Of a DNA stretch of 64,000 bases, positions 28,828 through 36,323 are shown one piece after another. Made by a program: the position numbers and the translations under genes. Position 1 is the stretch's first letter. Every line of letters starts with the position of its first letter. The stretch lies in contig CP021371.1 of NCBI GenBank assembly GCA_002600635.1, positions 1,925,001 through 1,989,000 of the forward strand, read 5' to 3'. This DNA comes from Rhizobium sp. ACO-34A (GTDB lineage Bacteria; Pseudomonadota; Alphaproteobacteria; Rhizobiales; Rhizobiaceae). The notes beneath the pieces are model-generated. The model searched no databases and was not told the origin of the DNA. It saw nothing but the letters and a program-made list of their open reading frames with translations.

Positions 28828-28901
28828 GCGGGTATAGCTCAATGGTAGAGCAGCAGCCTTCCAAGCTGAATACGCGGGTTCGATTCCCGCTACCCGCTCC
28901 A
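28828..28901 (+). tRNA. tRNA-Gly (anticodon TCC), island attachment gene
   Basis: This is a 74-base tRNA. The acceptor GCGGGTA pairs TACCCGC, the anticodon loop CTTCCAA holds TCC, and the CCA is encoded (28899-28901). The last 14 bases, CGCTACCCGCTCCA, occur again at 36310-36323, so the 3' end served as the integration site of the island that follows. The tRNA remains intact. Confidence 0.97.
28888..28901. repeat. attL: direct repeat copy inside tRNA-Gly 3' end
   Basis: CGCTACCCGCTCCA, left copy, identical to 36310-36323. Confidence 0.85.
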
Positions 28902-29290
28902 ATTTTTTTCTATAAAGCTTAGATATTGGACATAACAAACTGAATCTAAAAGATTTTTTTGAAAATCAAAAGTTCTTTCGGAACCTCAAAACCAAGAATC
29001 GAACTGGTCTGTTAGATTGGAAAGATGAATACTATCTTTTTGATAAATATGCATTTTCTTTGATCTGGCGGGAGGCGATTCTATGCCGGTTTCCCGTTGT
29101 GTATCATCAACAATGCTCTAGCCTTCCTAAAGAAGCTGATTTCCAAATTATAGAAACCAACGAATGAACTTCGGCTCATAGAATGAGGAGCCGGGGCCGA
29201 ATCCTTTCAAGAGTTCTCACGAACAGATGAGGAAATCATTTCCGCATCTGTTCTCTGTAGCTTGGTGGTTTGTCGTTGGATTGGGCCGAC
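28902..29290. other. Left flank of the island, non-coding
   Basis: About 390 AT-rich bases lie between tRNA-Gly and the recombinase stop. No gene is recognised. The att-site arms recognised by the recombinase would be expected here. Confidence 0.5.
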
Positions 29291-31629
29291 CTACGCTGCC
29301 TCCCAAACTTGGTTCAAAATCTTGGCTGCCAGTGCCGCCTTGTCCTGCGGCAGGAACCGACCGTAGTGCTGCTGCACCACATCCGGCGTATCCTTGATTG
29401 CGTAGCTTGCCTGCTCATACGACCCAGTCTGTTTGAGGATATGGGTCGCCAGAATGTCACGTAAGTTATGAGGACCATGCGGCAGCAGGCCCTTGATGGC
29501 GCCGCGACCGGCATAGGGATTGTAGATGCCATACCGCTGGATCACGGTCCGCCAGGCTTCGTAAAAAGTTGTGGAGTCATACGCCGCATCCAGGCTGGTC
29601 GCCTTCACCGTCTTGACGAACAGCGTGCCGGGATCTTTTGCCGAGCCGAGCAATACGCCGCGATGGCGGTCGATATAGGCTTCGAGGTATTTGTAGAGAT
29701 CAAGCAAGTCCGGCAGGATGAGACGGAACGGCTTCTGCCCAAAGAAGGACGAGCCCGAGTTCTTGAAGGCGACCGACGGGATGAGCACTTCCCATCCACC
29801 CTCTCGGTCGCTCCAGCGCAACTCGCCACATTTCATGTCTTCGAGGCGGCGTTCGGACGTGGGAAAAATGGCCGCGCGGGCAGACGCGAAGCTGACGAGG
29901 GTTCTTCTGCCGAAGCCCTGGGTGCAGGCCCAGGCGAAGCAAAAGGAAGGATCGCACAGCCTCGGCGGCTGCACGCGGGTAGCGGGCCTCATCTGGCATG
30001 CGTTTCAGGATCTCGTCCGTGATCTTGCGATATTCCGCCAGTGTGCTGTCTGCCTCCAGAACGCACATGATGGGCTCAAACGGATCACGGTGCACATGCA
30101 TCACGCGCTGTATTTCCTTTGAGCGGTTAGCGGCGTGCCGATGAAACGCATTGCAGGCGCCATGCCAGTCACGGGAGGCGAACTCGATCTCCTCCGGGGC
30201 AATCAGCCCGTCGATCGGTCGGACGTTTTTCAGGAGTTCGGGATGTTGACGGATCCAGCCAACCTCCGAGCGGGTGAGAGCTTGCGCGACCATCAACATG
30301 TCTTCTTCCCATTTGTTGTAGAAGCCGCGACGTTGTTCGCGCCATTGCAGATACCAGTCCCAGACGCCGGGGAAGATCAGCAGGCCAAAGGTCAACTGGC
30401 TGAGTGGGACGCCGCGGCCTTTGATGATGCCGTCGGGTGAGGCGGCCAGCGCTCCGAACATCAGGCCGAGATGTTCGATCTTCTGCGACGCGGTTTCCTC
30501 GCCCCATACACCATTCCGCTGAAAGCCGACCGCCGTCAGCGTCGAGGTCTTGAACCGGATCAGATCAGCCATTTCCATTGCAAGCCGCGGCGGCGCGTCG
30601 ACGACGCCAGACAGGAGGTCAGGATCCTCGAAGGTTTCCGCAGCATTGTGGTTGTGGCGCTGGCAGACAGGGAGTTCGCGCTAGGAGACAGCGAGCCTCC
30701 GCCATAGGTGACGCCTGGAAAGCAGATGGCGTAACGCTGTTTGGTTGCGGCAGCCTGGTAGCGCAGATAGTCAGTCGAACCCGAGATAATGACCCGGCGC
30801 ACCCAGTCGAGGATTTCCTCCCGCTTGCTGAACGGCAGGCTGCTGAAATCTTCCGCCGCGCGGCGGGGCTGATGTCGCCAAGGTCGTGACCTTGGAGAGA
30901 GCGTGACTGATGGGGCAACTTCGCCTTGAAGTATCCTTCCGGCAGCCGGTATCGTCGCTCGATACGGGAGAGGATGTCCATGCTCGCGACGGATCGTGGC
31001 ATGCGCTCTCCCTGGATCCAGGACAGCAGAGTCTTGTCGTCGAACGTTTCGCCGAGGCGAACGACGGCGCGATAGAGCTGCCAGTAGCGCTCGCCGAACC
31101 GGCGCATGTGATAGACGAGGGCATCCTGAAATCCGGCGGGGTCCTCGCTCGCTTCGAACAACGGATCCGGAAATGGTTGGATCACTTTCGGTTGCAGCCC
31201 TCTCGGCGCCAAAGCGGATTGCGCATGAATATTGTCGTCGCCGATCCGCCGCGGCTTTCGGGTAGAGAGCGTGGGAGTTGTAGCCTTACGCTGATCGGCT
31301 TTATGTGATTGCGGGGCTCGCTTCATTGGCCGAATGTCTTCAGACGCGGGTGGTGCGCCCAGCCAGCGGATGATTGCATCCAGAGCAATACGGAACTGCT
31401 TCTTTAAATCGGCCGTTAGTTCGTCTTCAATTCCGCAGGCGTGAGAAATCGCCATCCAGTCGGTGCGACGATTCTGTAGCGGTGGCGACTTGCGGTAGAT
31501 TATGAGGCTGATGAGATAGGGCCTGATATTCTCCAGCAACCGCTTCGACGTGACCGGAGCAATACGCACCCCGCAGAACTTTGAGATTTCTTGCTGAAAA
31601 TGACGTGATGAAAGATCTTGTTTTGGCAT
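29291..31629 (-). pseudogene. Site-specific tyrosine recombinase (integrase), frameshifted
   Basis: A continuous ancestral frame of about 775 codons is broken three times: near 30852-30868 (one base missing), near 30680-30686 (one base missing, giving a TAG) and at the A-run 29864-29868 (one base extra on the minus strand as TTTTT). The N-terminal part (31629 to about 30868) has an HTH-like stretch (GETFDDKTLLSWIQGERMPRSVASMDILSRIERRY). The last part carries the tyrosine-recombinase signature: Arg-I in RRLEDMKCGELRW, the HxxR box as HNLRD, and the nucleophile Tyr in VVQQHYGRF. It presumably integrated the island at tRNA-Gly. Three independent shifts argue for true decay, though sequence quality must be checked. 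Its family name is unclear to me. Confidence 0.8.
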
Positions 31630-32009
31630 GCTCGCATTTCATTACAGTCGGCACCGGTGCCGAGGGCGAGCGGGAATAGGAGTGGAATATTAACAATCAG
31701 TGTAATCGTTAGAGCCAGACACACTTGCCCGCATGTTCGCGATATCGTGGGCATGGCAGAGGAGATTGGGAACGAGGCCTATATCCTCATTGCAGAACTG
31801 GCAAATGAGGGGATTAAGCAATCCGTGCTAGCTGTTGTTCACAAAGTCATCTCGACTCGTGCCGCGCTGTTGCGGGGAGTAACTAAAAAAGGACTTTGAG
31901 CAGTCGCCAGAATGACAGGCGGGTAATCGGCGTCGATATCAATGTCCGCTCGCTGTCTGGCCGAAGACGACGAAACGCAGTTGCCCGCCCTGAGGCGCGA
32001 GAGTCCGCT
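31630..32009. other. Spacer between recombinase and NACHT gene
   Basis: About 380 bases lie here. The only frame of note is a plus-strand ORF around 31753-31899 (48 aa, MAEEIGNEAYILIAEL) with no ribosome-binding site; I do not call it. A promoter for the recombinase is expected near 31640-31750. Confidence 0.45.
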
Positions 32010-35000
32010 TTAGCTTGGCGTTTTCATCTTCCAGAGCCATTCAACCGGATCGAGCATGCGAACGTGCGCATAGTCGATCGGCGGAATGTCGATGAAGCGC
32101 ACTAGGCGGGATTGGCGCGACAGGGCTGCTTCGGGTTGCGCCTCGATCTCGGCGAGCAATCTCCTTGCGTCCGTGCGGAGCCCAGCGATATCCACGCCGC
32201 TGAGCGCGGCGAGGGCCTCCACCATAGCGCGCATTTCCTCCCGTTTTCCGGGATCTTGCCAGCGTTTGCTAGCGTTCCGCAGGCCGAAGCTAAAGCCGGT
32301 GGCCTCCAGAAACGCGCTGAAATGAAGGAAGGGGGCACCAGCCTCGGTTCCGTCCTCCTCGATGAGCCTTTCGCCGGCACCGTCAGCAAGCACGTCGAGG
32401 ATCATCTTCAGCATCTGCTCTTCTCGTTTGGCGTAGCGTTTCTCCTGTTCGAGCGAGAGGAAGCCCCATCGGGAGAGCAGCCCATCGGCATCATCGCCGC
32501 GTCCGGCCGAATGAAGTAGCGCGGTGGCGTTGTGAACGAACCTGATGGGCGGCGGGGCGGGCTTGTCGCTGAGTTTCCGGAGAAGGGTCGCCAGAAGCGT
32601 ATTGCTTCTTTCGGCGGGAAGGTCCCGGAGCATCTCCTCGAACGCGGCCGTCGCGAAGGCGATGGCGAGGTCCTGAGCGTCGTCGTACGCCGTTGAGCCG
32701 GGCGGCGGGCCGAAATCCTCCGGGTGCATGCCGAGGGCTGGCAGGTCGAGGAACATCGCGACGAGGGCGTCGAGGTTGTAGTGCCGAGGCCCCGCCGTCG
32801 CTAGGCAGGCCCAGGCGGCAAAGCGCACCCAGTTCCGCGGGTCGTCGCGGACCACGCCTGCCCGCCGCGCGACCGCGTCGGGATAGGGTTTCGTCGCGCG
32901 GAGCAGGACCGGAAGGATGCGGCCAGCCGCCGCCGGCGTGGACAGGAGAAGGGCGAAGGCGGCGTCCAGGATCTCCTCGACAAGATCCGTCGGCAATCCG
33001 CCGTCGCTGTCGGCGAGCAGCGCGACGCATGCGCCGATCCGCCTCGCATGCGGGATGCCTTCGCCGGCAGGCGTCAGCAAGGCGCGGGCGACAGGAACGG
33101 CAAGGCCGAGGCCGCCCGCGAAAATCAGCGGCTCCAGGAAGGCGGCGCGTTGCGAGCCGGACAGGATCGCAGCGTCGCGCGCCTCGGCGGGAAGGCTCGC
33201 GAGATAGCGCGCGCCCGCATATTCGCCGAGCGTCTTGTGGACGAACAGCAGCATGTCCTCGCTGGCATGGCGCACCTGCTCGATCAGGCCCGTCTGACGC
33301 CAGAACGCCACGCATTCCTCGAACCCTGTCTCCGCCCTGAGCCTCGACACGCCCAGCTCGTCGGCCAGTATCTCGGCGCATTGCGTGCGAACCTGGGTCA
33401 GCCGCGCGCTGGGATTTGCCGTCAGCACCCAGCCCAGCACGTCCACGCAGCGGATCGCCAGGCTGCTGAAGGGCCGGGCATCGACGCGGGCATTGGGCGC
33501 CCGCTCGATCCGCTCGAACACGCGCGCGTAGAGACCGCTCCTGCCGTCGCCGAACTCGATCCGGTCAACGCCGAACAGGACGCCGAAACCGAGGAGCAGG
33601 GGACTGCGGTTCAGGAGGCTGCCGCCGGGGTTGCGCGCGAACTGCCGCTCGACGAAGGCCTGCGTGGCGAGCCGCTCGGCGGGCGCGTCGGGATAGATGC
33701 CAATAAGAAGGCGCTCGACATGGTCGCCCACGCGAAAGGGATCGAGCGCCAGTATCTCGTAATGGCGCCAGCCGCTGAGATGCGGCGTCTCATAGCCGAC
33801 CGGCCGCGTGGTGACGATCACGCGGCAGCCCGGATGGCTTTCGGCGAAGGCCGCAAGGTCGCGTGCGATACGGTCCTGGGCGTCGCCGGTCTCGTCCAGG
33901 CCGTCGCACAGCAGCACGCCGGATGCCAGGAAAGCCGGCGTGATCATATCGGGAGCGACGCCGCAATCCCGCACGCCGAGCGCCAGGAGGTTTTCCAGGA
34001 ATGACCCGCCGCGCCGCAGCGCCAGCGCCTTCGCATCGACCCTGACAACCGGGAAGCCGTCCCGCGCATAGGCTAATGCCAGCTTACGGATCAGCATGCT
34101 CTTGCCCAGGCCAGGACCACCGACAACGACGCAGTGCCGGTAGAATCGTCCGATCGATATGTTCGCGATGGACGGGACCGCCCAATCGGCCATCGGATAT
34201 CCGCTCTCGCGATAGCGGGCCAGCATCGCGTCGGTCGTCGCGGGCCTGCCGGTTTCCGCGTTCATCGCGACGATGACGGGCAGGTCGATCCATGCTTTGT
34301 CCATCGACAGCGGTCGGGACACACCGAAGATCGAGAAGGACCGGTTGGACGCGACGACATGCTGCCGAAGCCGGGCTTTGGCCTCGCGCACGGCGTCCTC
34401 GTCCTCGGGTGCTCCGGCGCGCCTGAACGCCCTCTGCTCGCTGAACGGAACCTGGCTCGACGTCGCATCCTCGAAGACGCGCAGGAAATCCGCCCGTGTC
34501 AGGGAAGGGGCTGCTTCGGACGAGGCCGTTTCGAATGCCCGGTGATAAAGGGCGTCGAAGGCCTTCTGCGAATCGCCCGGCGACGAGCCTGTCTTCTCTC
34601 CATGCAGGACCAGCGCGTTCTTGATCGTCCGGACCAGGTCGTCGCTGTCTCCCAGTCCCGTGCTCCACTCGATCGGCAGGATCAGCCGTTCGATCACGCC
34701 GGCGGGCGTGGCGCTTTCGAGAAAGGCCTTCACTTCGAGGAGAATCTCCGGCTGCTCGCACAGGAATTCCGTGATCCGCTTTGCATTGGCGAGGGACCTT
34801 CCCGTCAGCGGTGCGGCTCGGATGTCCGACCAGAGGCGAAGCCCGCTCTGTGCCTTGCCGAAAGACCGGTCCCGCTCGATGCCGATGCCGGATGTCGTCA
34901 TGTAGCGGTAGCGGAGGCGGAGTTCGCGATTCCGCTCTTGGTGCCGCCAGAAGGCGTTAATGGCGTCGATCACGCCCTTCGTGCGAAGCGTGATGTTTCC

Positions 35001-35198
35001 CGATCCGGCCGTGTTGCGCGCCTGGCCGAGCAGCGCGTCTTGGCCGGCAACCCGGTCGAAATCCTCCGCCCCCTCAAGATAAAGCTCCTCATGATCGTCG
35101 AGGCGGAGCCAGGCATCGATGGTCCGTACGATCTGATAGCTGTAGCCGCGCAATGCGGTTCTGGCGTTGCGCTTCGGGTCGGCATTTAGGCGGTTCAT
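32010..35198 (-). CDS. NACHT NTPase with N-terminal Cap4/DUF4297-like nuclease-fold domain (candidate antiphage defence)
   Basis: This intact 1062-aa ORF has a STAND/NLR build. Residues 10-110 resemble the Cap4/DUF4297 nuclease family: RGYSYQIVRTIDAWL (18-31), LEGAEDFD (41-48), GQAR (58-61), then AINAFW (79-84) and LRYRYMTTSG (95-104). After a linker comes the NACHT domain with Walker A GGPGLGKS (360-367), Walker B LLCDGLDE (429-436) and sensor RVIVTTRP (459-466). The winged-helix/NACHT end shows FVHKTLGEYAGARYLASL (652-669), and a long helical, repeat-like C-terminus follows (about 690-1062). Family knowledge: such proteins sense phage products and then activate an effector domain. The nuclease motif seems altered (QAR, where the family has QxK), so activity is uncertain. 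It has no obvious partner genes. Confidence 0.88.
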   Translation of the reverse strand: MNRLNADPKRNARTALRGYSYQIVRTIDAWLRLDDHEELYLEGAEDFDRVAGQDALLGQARNTAGSGNITLRTKGVIDAINAFWRHQERNRELRLRYRYMTTSGIGIERDRSFGKAQSGLRLWSDIRAAPLTGRSLANAKRITEFLCEQPEILLEVKAFLESATPAGVIERLILPIEWSTGLGDSDDLVRTIKNALVLHGEKTGSSPGDSQKAFDALYHRAFETASSEAAPSLTRADFLRVFEDATSSQVPFSEQRAFRRAGAPEDEDAVREAKARLRQHVVASNRSFSIFGVSRPLSMDKAWIDLPVIVAMNAETGRPATTDAMLARYRESGYPMADWAVPSIANISIGRFYRHCVVVGGPGLGKSMLIRKLALAYARDGFPVVRVDAKALALRRGGSFLENLLALGVRDCGVAPDMITPAFLASGVLLCDGLDETGDAQDRIARDLAAFAESHPGCRVIVTTRPVGYETPHLSGWRHYEILALDPFRVGDHVERLLIGIYPDAPAERLATQAFVERQFARNPGGSLLNRSPLLLGFGVLFGVDRIEFGDGRSGLYARVFERIERAPNARVDARPFSSLAIRCVDVLGWVLTANPSARLTQVRTQCAEILADELGVSRLRAETGFEECVAFWRQTGLIEQVRHASEDMLLFVHKTLGEYAGARYLASLPAEARDAAILSGSQRAAFLEPLIFAGGLGLAVPVARALLTPAGEGIPHARRIGACVALLADSDGGLPTDLVEEILDAAFALLLSTPAAAGRILPVLLRATKPYPDAVARRAGVVRDDPRNWVRFAAWACLATAGPRHYNLDALVAMFLDLPALGMHPEDFGPPPGSTAYDDAQDLAIAFATAAFEEMLRDLPAERSNTLLATLLRKLSDKPAPPPIRFVHNATALLHSAGRGDDADGLLSRWGFLSLEQEKRYAKREEQMLKMILDVLADGAGERLIEEDGTEAGAPFLHFSAFLEATGFSFGLRNASKRWQDPGKREEMRAMVEALAALSGVDIAGLRTDARRLLAEIEAQPEAALSRQSRLVRFIDIPPIDYAHVRMLDPVEWLWKMKTPS

Positions 35199-36309
35199 GG
35201 GCTTCGGATCGGCTTTCTTTCTATGGTTAGAGATCCCATAAACGCCTTAAATACGGTCAAGGAGACTATCGACATTCCTATTACGATCGATGCTCTCGTT
35301 TTTTGGGAAGCTGGAATTCCGAAAGCGTTTGGCTGTCATCGTGCGGAGGAAGCGTGCATTCGCGAATGTCGGTTTCTGGCGTATGAAATCCGTTTCACCA
35401 ATAAGGGCGAAAATAAACTCCGTCTGGAGTGGCTTTGCCTCGGGTAAGCGTTCTCACTACATTCATTTCAGTTGAAGCAGACCGTTATGTCAAATCATGG
35501 CAAAAAGCCGTGCCAACGGTGGATAATCAAGCATGATCCACGATCGGCGTCGGGCATTTCTCAACGCCGCCCCGAGATGTTCCTCAATCCCTGCCTAGGG
35601 GGTATATTGCGGCTCTCTGAAATTCACTGCGTGGGGAGCGTATTCGCCCTCCGGATATATTGACGTCCCTGATGAGCCATGAGCAACAGCCCTACTGTGC
35701 CGCCCGCTGAAGGCGGCTGAACTGAATGGCACCACGCATCAGGCAGGCGACTCACGTGAGATCAAAGCCGGCCGCAGGGCTGCTACTGAGCATGATCTCC
35801 CCCCCGTTAGAGAGAATGCTTCTCGATCCCGAGGTTCGGTCCACTTTCGACATCTTCGGCAGTGAACTTCCGGACGAAGCCTTTGACGGTGTCCTCGATC
35901 AATTTTCTATGCCGGCGACGCGAATAATAGCCGGTATTGATTAAAAACTGAGGCATACCGACGTCTATCTGTTGGCATCCACCTTCATCGACAGCCAGGC
36001 AGGGCTTTCGCCACATGACAAGAGACTGTGGGCGGCAACTGACAAGGCAAGGGTGAGACTCCATCCACTAGCAACTATGTCGAACTAATAGCAGGGGAAG
36101 CGCTGACGTTCTCACCGCAACCATTCTACGGCGGTGGAAAATGGCTTGGACTCCATGGATCATAGTGGAACTTGGTGGAAAAATATGACTTATTAATTAG
36201 ATAGCATCACGCCGATTGGTGATTTCCGGTACATCAAATAGTACATCCGGCAAATCACGAATTGGAAGAATGCTATTCGATCAAGACGTTAGAGCCCGGA
36301 TATGAGGCT
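35199..36309. other. Right part of the island, no recognisable gene
   Basis: About 1.1 kb lies upstream of the NACHT gene. Short ORFs (plus 35223-35447; plus 35726-35944; minus 35807-36064) lack ribosome-binding sites and known domains. They may be remnants of older cargo. The NACHT promoter should lie in about 35199-35500 on the minus strand. AT-rich sequence near 36170-36260 with the inverted word pair GGTACAT...AGTACATCC could be recombinase arm sites. Confidence 0.45.
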
Positions 36310-36323
36310 CGCTACCCGCTCCA
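36310..36323. repeat. attR: direct repeat copy of the tRNA-Gly 3' end
   Basis: CGCTACCCGCTCCA, right copy; it ends the island 219 bases before tufA. Confidence 0.85.

Follow-up and report, generated by a model that had tools for sequence, protein, structure and literature searches.

A candidate single-gene NACHT defence protein with a Cap4/DUF4297-type N-terminal domain and arginine at the catalytic-lysine position, carried by a tRNA-Gly insertion of Rhizobium sp. ACO-34A

Published tests of bacterial NACHT proteins show defence against phages, and in bNACHT25 and bNACHT32, which combine a PD-(D/E)XK nuclease with a NACHT module, DNA is degraded upon phage infection; the exchange D48A abolishes both defence and nuclease activity (available part of PMC12169576). 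A second point of reference is the DUF4297-HerA complex 8XAV with its nuclease mutant D40A/Q53A/K55A; mutants of either the nuclease or the ATPase active site lost phage defence (available part of PMC11291478). The gene described here lies in a stretch of 64,000 nucleotides from Rhizobium sp. ACO-34A (contig CP021371.1, positions 1,925,001 to 1,989,000; hereafter the window) and encodes a protein of 1062 amino acids, P0001, with a DUF4297-type N-terminal domain in front of a NACHT module. By sequence and by analogy, it is read as a single-gene bacterial NACHT (NLR-related, STAND) anti-phage protein acting through abortive infection, with a probability of about 0.68.

The gene occupies 32010..35198 of the minus strand as a single uninterrupted frame with an ATG start, the sequence being read from 35198 down. 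The plus-strand reading of this interval (frame 1) is ruled out, as stops break the frame. The longest stop-free frame of the 7,422-bp insertion carrying the gene comprises 1078 codons, far above the maximum of 338 found in 200 mononucleotide shuffles, and the open reading frame is therefore not a product of chance. The intact frame had been claimed before by a sequence-only reading and holds, with the minus strand now added. In its own genome (6.28 Mb, five contigs), P0001 has one match. Stretches from two of the four other contigs find their best matches in plasmids of Rhizobium daejeonense, at 88.5% identity over 68% and 90.5% over 63% of the query, which suggests a member of the Rhizobiaceae close to this species.

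The NACHT/STAND architecture likewise stands. With the NACHT profile run, the Pfam NACHT domain scores 26.9 bits against a cut-off of 26.7 and is thus barely above it, the relative P0010 reaching 41.9 bits. Walker A, Walker B with its acidic residues and the sensor arginine are all found in P0001. G363, G365, K366, D432, D435, and R465 are invariant in the 24 sequences of alignment A1; in an alignment of 30 rows, only G365 and K366 of these six remain so. A profile of 13 NACHT-family relatives, with P0007 included and P0001 left out, matches NLRC4 structures with an expectation value (E) of 2.8e-5. The motif positions given by the sequence-only reading agree: 360-367, 429-436 (here 428-436 as VLLCDGLDE), 463-466, RGYSYQ (residues 17-22), EGAEDFD, and GQAR. 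Its FxHKTxGEYxxARYL end is present as well but extends over residues 652-666, not 652-669. The NACHT clade of P0001 lacks the C-terminal ~240-250 residues of its relatives of 1,300 amino acids. The last ~12 residues of P0001 are unlike those of P0004-P0007, and P0002 diverges at the same point (31929-32030, minus strand). A neighbouring frame at 31929-32030 (minus strand) reads MALEDENAKLKR..., which resembles the end of an IS3-type transposase.

The N-terminal domain (N-domain) is of the DUF4297/LmuA type, here termed A-type. Its best PADLOC match is LmuA with E 2.9e-5 over residues 12-244, DUF4297 giving E 0.0028; in a set of 14 diverse N-domains, PADLOC matches both LmuA and DUF4297 in 14/14. 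The Pfam family Cap4_nuclease is matched in 4 of these 14, P0001 not being among them, and the NCBIfam DUF4297 model gives P0001 19.3 bits, far under its cut-off of 300 bits. A profile of the 14 sequences matches the DUF4297 structures 9c1m, 8ziq, and 8xav with E 5.9e-6 to 4.9e-5. In the alignment with 8XAV, the residues E36/E39/D40/D42/Q53/K55 fall at a constant offset on E42/E45/D46/D48/Q59/R61 of P0001. The Cap4/DUF4297-like N-terminus proposed from the sequence alone is therefore borne out by the PADLOC matches, with the DUF4297 hidden Markov model run, and by the profile match to solved DUF4297 structures.

The predicted active site is retained except for one residue, and the N-domain is probably still a nuclease. 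A total of 145 N-domains was gathered, six of NACHT members (P0001-P0006) and 139 of non-NACHT proteins. E42, E45, D46, and Q59 are invariant in 145/145, and position 48 is an aspartate in 142. Position 61 is lysine in 135 and arginine in 10, with no third residue; the arginine carriers are the six NACHT members and P0055, P0131, P0163, and P0164. Of the catalytic D...QxK pattern, P0001 thus has D46 and Q59, with R61 in place of the lysine. The GQAR stretch had been listed earlier as a supporting motif, yet it departs from the family pattern at exactly this position; the arginine had gone unmentioned. On one quick tree, from which columns 58-61 were left out, the K/R state changes 5 times. Since only K or R occur and the state changes repeatedly, a positive charge seems to be required at position 61, with R tolerated. 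P0055 carries an A-type-like N-domain (DUF4297 E 1.1e-5) before an NB-ARC module (Pfam 88 bits) and also has R for K.

The same data bear on the best-surviving alternative, namely that the same NACHT alarm protein carries a dead or altered nuclease. In this case, R61 and G58 would make the N-domain an effector that binds DNA or nucleotides, or a nuclease of different chemistry, and toxicity would arise through binding, through sequestration or through some other target. In 119 non-NACHT N-domains, 27 columns show a conservation of at least 95%, and 25 of these are unaltered in the six NACHT members. The changed columns are S26, a threonine in 2/6, and K61, an arginine in 6/6 and the sole one of the 27 altered in all six. 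All six carry G58, a residue seen in 0/119 of the others and in 6/145 of the larger set; like K61R, it lies in or beside the QxK motif. These points favour an altered site; however, E42, E45, D46, D48, and Q59 are retained in all six at an N-domain identity of 57-63% between NACHT subgroups, although the loss of some of them is what one would expect of a dead site, and arginine at position 61 also appears in four of the 139 non-NACHT domains. A dead or altered nuclease appears unlikely on this balance. Because position 61 is only ever K or R and the acidic residues are retained, an enzyme that still works or has been tuned seems to us more likely than a dead one.

The N-domain is unusual for the NACHT lineage that carries it. 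A scan of named genomes returned at least 135 relatives, of which the best 80 were used, and records near the window's own genome were possibly left out. The strong set consists of 39 loci—drawn from these best 80 of at least 135, with the plasmid locus L007 and the viral locus L088 added—that match residues 275-1062 with E <=9.75e-39; the next locus follows at 2.9e-18. Among the matches listed, 35 of the 39 N-domains are of a second type, here B-type, four are of neither type (L009, L035, L037, L041), and none is A-type. The weaker loci add, among the matches listed, one faint A-type match (L047, 37 bits) and three faint B-type matches (L068, L078, L086). P0002-P0006 resemble P0001 in both halves. 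P0002 (97% identical) and P0003 (84%) come from differing sources and have the same N-domain and similarly short ends.

In the columns of the NACHT and C-terminal regions, P0007 shares 57-76% identity with P0001-P0006, reaching 76% to P0006 in the NACHT region. Its front end is B-type: 38-46% identical to six B-type relatives versus 28-34% for its remainder. It is apparently short of the first ~40 B-type residues, possibly owing to the start-site call. Between P0006 and P0007, 7/30 positions are identical in the bin starting at residue 240, but 21/30 in the one starting at 270, which places an abrupt junction of the aligned sequences near residue 275. A search for shared ancestry of the two N-domain types in their sequences found none, the hhalign probability being 0.1-1.2%. 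Both types are alike in an acidic and QxK pattern, which reads E..DD...ExQxKK in the B-type. On a tree built from 45 N-domain rows, the domains of the six NACHT members group together (97% in the Shimodaira-Hasegawa-like approximate likelihood ratio test) next to those of P0032-P0034, P0054, and others, and in the tree of the NACHT and C-terminal regions, P0007 is the sister of P0006 (93/78). Judged by these alignments and trees, the A-type N-domain replaces the N-terminus usual for this NACHT lineage, that is, the effector has been swapped; the sequence-only reading had not noted this replacement. In the approximately unbiased test, a P0001-P0006 clade excluding P0007 is not rejected (p 0.26), and among these seven proteins the exchange may therefore have run either way.

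Beyond chromosomes, 50,697 phage records hold no relative with 80% cover and 2 partial NACHT matches, and 72,556 plasmid records hold none with 80% cover and 17 partial matches. Viral contigs yield at least 2 relatives, L088 being B-type and L089 of neither type. The combination of NACHT, DUF4297, and phage was not met in the open-licence literature, which does not show it to be unpublished.

The gene resides on an insertion between tRNA-Gly(tcc) and tuf, the latter recognized by eye. In the 12 of 59 same-genus genomes that were fetched, the gap between tRNA and tuf measures 219-243 bp in 10, versus 7,641 bp in the window. L120 and L122 represent the empty site, with a 13-bp overlap between the flank next to the tRNA and the one next to tuf. 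These empty sites and the flank overlap delimit the 7,422-bp insertion, and the two 14-bp repeats fit the island-borne location claimed earlier. The 2-kb bin 32001-34000 has a GC fraction of 0.673, the other bins of the window ranging from 0.555 to 0.621. The remaining two gaps (L124 12306-13400 and L125 734-1810) each contain a zinc-type alcohol-dehydrogenase-like gene, recognized by eye, and the tRNA-Gly-tuf gap therefore accepts other DNA, too.

Besides the NACHT gene, the only large intact gene recognized on the insertion, there is a broken recombinase, a point the sequence-only reading lacked. Relatives of its last piece were found in 53 out of 297 genomes of the family (its own included), the best being 88-95% identical and several having open frames of ~800 codons. 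As a marker of tRNA-borne defence islands, this recombinase family is unsupported: a tRNA gene was found in 0 of 12 neighbourhoods drawn from the 53 genomes, whose cargo was not scanned for defence. In 5 of these 12, the recombinase relative is adjoined by a gene that looks HipA-like.

The state of the insertion raises the possibility of a relic, that is, a once-active defence gene stranded on decaying DNA with its function lost. The recombinase broken over three frames, the C-terminal end unlike that of P0004-P0007, and the presumed IS3-like stretch in the neighbouring frame all point this way. Nevertheless, the frame is uninterrupted over 3.2 kb with its NTPase motifs intact, and P0002 and P0003, found in other sources—P0002 possibly from the same species—share the N-domain and similar short ends. 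A relic is improbable on these grounds.

The neighbourhoods of the relatives hold no widely shared gene. Among 452 open reading frames of at least 100 amino acids around 39 loci, the largest shared cluster spans 6 loci, in agreement with the earlier statement that partner genes are absent. For a defence scan, 81 of 249 open reading frames (at least 200 amino acids) from 12 of 27 loci were picked by hand, and 25 of 187 PADLOC families were listed. Among the matches listed are GajA (9.3e-264), HamB (E 0), Dsr1, RT_IX, and five phage integrases. UvrD helicases have housekeeping roles as well, which lowers the specificity of the matches to GajB/UvrD. Known defence genes are hence found beside some NACHT-family relatives; for the A-type clade itself, the neighbourhood covered is that of this insertion. 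The B-type locus L007 on the conjugative plasmid pRLa11 of Rhizobium leguminosarum lies near a site-specific integrase, a metallo-β-lactamase (MBL)-fold hydrolase, and a patatin-like phospholipase; relatives of the MBL gene and its neighbour are also present at L032. That the NACHT gene, as the only large intact gene recognized on the insertion, serves to exclude plasmids or other mobile elements or to stabilize the insertion in a toxin-like manner is very improbable, given the known phage-defence genes beside some NACHT relatives and the phage defence by bacterial NACHT proteins in print (PMC12169576, available part).

Several observations weigh against an active anti-phage protein. The insertion is decaying, as its recombinase is broken, and a crude scan saw no sigma-70-like promoter upstream of the NACHT gene. 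P0001-P0003 are short of a further 30-40 end residues found in P0004-P0007. In this fold, the lysine is normally catalytic, and R61 may weaken or abolish cutting. P0001 alone retrieves zero NACHT or nuclease structures from the PDB, the top match being a HerA-like helicase at E 0.17, and a profile of 30 sequences including P0001 matches NLRC4 at E 0.074-0.091 only, below other P-loop proteins. Many of the scanned neighbours of the relatives are ordinary genes—transporters, citrate synthase, GMP synthase, and parts of tRNA synthetases—in a scan without a control set. Finally, outside the own genome, 397 genomes sampled from the order and 385 from the class gave no full-length relative when up to two candidates were scored per listed genome, and there are therefore no other neighbourhoods for this A-type NACHT clade. 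Immediately upstream of the gene lies a small divergent open reading frame of ~74 amino acids (35223-35447, plus strand).

For the single-gene anti-phage protein, the mechanism is expected by analogy with bNACHT25/32. At rest, the NACHT switch would keep the N-domain inactive. A cue that stems from the phage or is induced by it would be sensed by residues ~670-1062 and lead to nucleotide exchange, opening of the NACHT module, and oligomerization. The DUF4297/Cap4-type N-domains would thereby be gathered as dimers or larger assemblies and would cut cellular and phage DNA with arginine replacing lysine. The infected cell would then die or halt growth in the manner of abortive infection.

A more specific proposal, offered tentatively and given less than even odds, is that a NACHT lineage swapped in a Cap4/DUF4297-type nuclease and, on the branch towards the NACHT-borne copies, fixed K61R together with G58, such that arginine chemistry sets the output: either a working nuclease tuned to be less self-toxic on its new switch or a non-cutting effector. 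If so, K-to-R exchanges arising independently on other chassis would make position 61 a site at which STAND effectors are repeatedly tuned. P0006 and P0007, with NACHT regions 76% identical and front ends without detectable relationship, offer a natural experiment on the rebuilding of bacterial NLR-like proteins. The exchange of lysine for arginine raises the question of whether a PD-(D/E)XK immune nuclease can work with arginine and whether its tuning is linked to the change of switch.

Table 1. Positions in the window of the NACHT gene, its predicted domains and motifs, and the surrounding insertion
Feature	Position	Strand	Basis
NACHT/STAND protein gene, intact, 1062 amino acids	32010..35198	-	Open reading frame list and Pfam
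DUF4297/LmuA-type (Cap4-like) nuclease domain (predicted), A-type, residues 1-270	34389..35198	-	PADLOC and structure-profile matches
EGAEDFD, residues 42-48, with acidic residues E42, E45, D46 and D48 of the predicted active site	35055..35075	-	
GQAR, residues 58-61; Q59 retained, catalytic-lysine position 61 is Arg	35016..35027	-	
Approximate effector-swap junction, residues ~270-278	34365..34391	-	P0006 versus P0007 identity by bins
NACHT domain, residues 355-486	33741..34136	-	Pfam PF05729
Walker A GGPGLGKS, residues 360-367	34098..34121	-	Motif check
Walker B VLLCDGLDE, residues 428-436	33891..33917	-	Motif check
Sensor TTRP, residues 463-466	33801..33812	-	Motif check
FVHKTLGEYAGARYL, residues 652-666	33201..33245	-	H654 and E659 invariant across 24 sequences of alignment A1
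C-terminal region, residues 670-1062, presumed sensor	32013..33191	-	Zero Pfam families above cut-off
tRNA-Gly(tcc)	28828-28901		
Left copy of 14-bp repeat CGCTACCCGCTCCA, 3' end of tRNA-Gly(tcc)	28888..28901		
Right copy of 14-bp repeat	36310..36323		
Insertion, 7,422 bp	28902-36323		
Broken recombinase (phage-integrase type), ~800 amino acids, over three frames	29291..31629	-	Pfam Phage_integrase E 0.097, below cut-off

Among the described systems, bNACHT25 and bNACHT32 (clade 6) are alike in being single proteins with an N-terminal PD-(D/E)XK-type nuclease, a central NACHT module, and a C-terminal sensor (PMC12169576, available part). Their C-terminus is NCH1, whereas P0001 has no NCH match in Pfam at E 1, a negative that presupposes an NCH1 model in Pfam; the comparison is one by description. 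HerA-DUF4297 (8XAV) agrees with P0001 in the start of the N-domain and in the register of E..ED.D and Q.K. However, it is a two-gene complex with the HerA ATPase, while P0001 is a NACHT fusion with Arg for Lys. LmuA, the Cap4-type effector of Lamassu, is the best PADLOC match of the N-domain and differs in its activator. A two-component Lamassu or HerA-DUF4297 system is rejected at this locus, since PADLOC recognized no partner (LmuB/SMC-type or HerA) among the three other open reading frames of the insertion and the outer neighbours are the tRNA and tuf. Avs (AVAST) proteins reportedly follow a STAND logic with an N-terminal nuclease, such as a Cap4 or Mrr N-domain (Gao 2022); P0001 has no Avs family match in PADLOC at E 1.

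The closest N-domains outside NACHT, 47-51% identical, are those of P0032, P0033, and P0034 (~1342 amino acids), for which we infer a TPR-STAND organization. P0032 and P0034 match Pfam TPR_12 and AAA_16 under the cut-off, and P0032 is labelled a TPR protein by its source. These putative TPR-STAND proteins have different NTPase and TPR parts and retain K61. The B-type NACHT relatives (P0007-P0024, L007), in turn, share the NACHT and C-terminal regions (P0008, P0010, P0012, and P0017 at ~21-43%) and have a different N-terminus; the PADLOC family PDC-M54A matches this N-terminus in P0008, P0010, and P0016, not in P0007. The gene is, as its sequence indicates, a candidate of a known kind—single-gene NACHT defence—in which the combination with this effector is uncommon within the NACHT family and a substitution in the predicted active site has become fixed.

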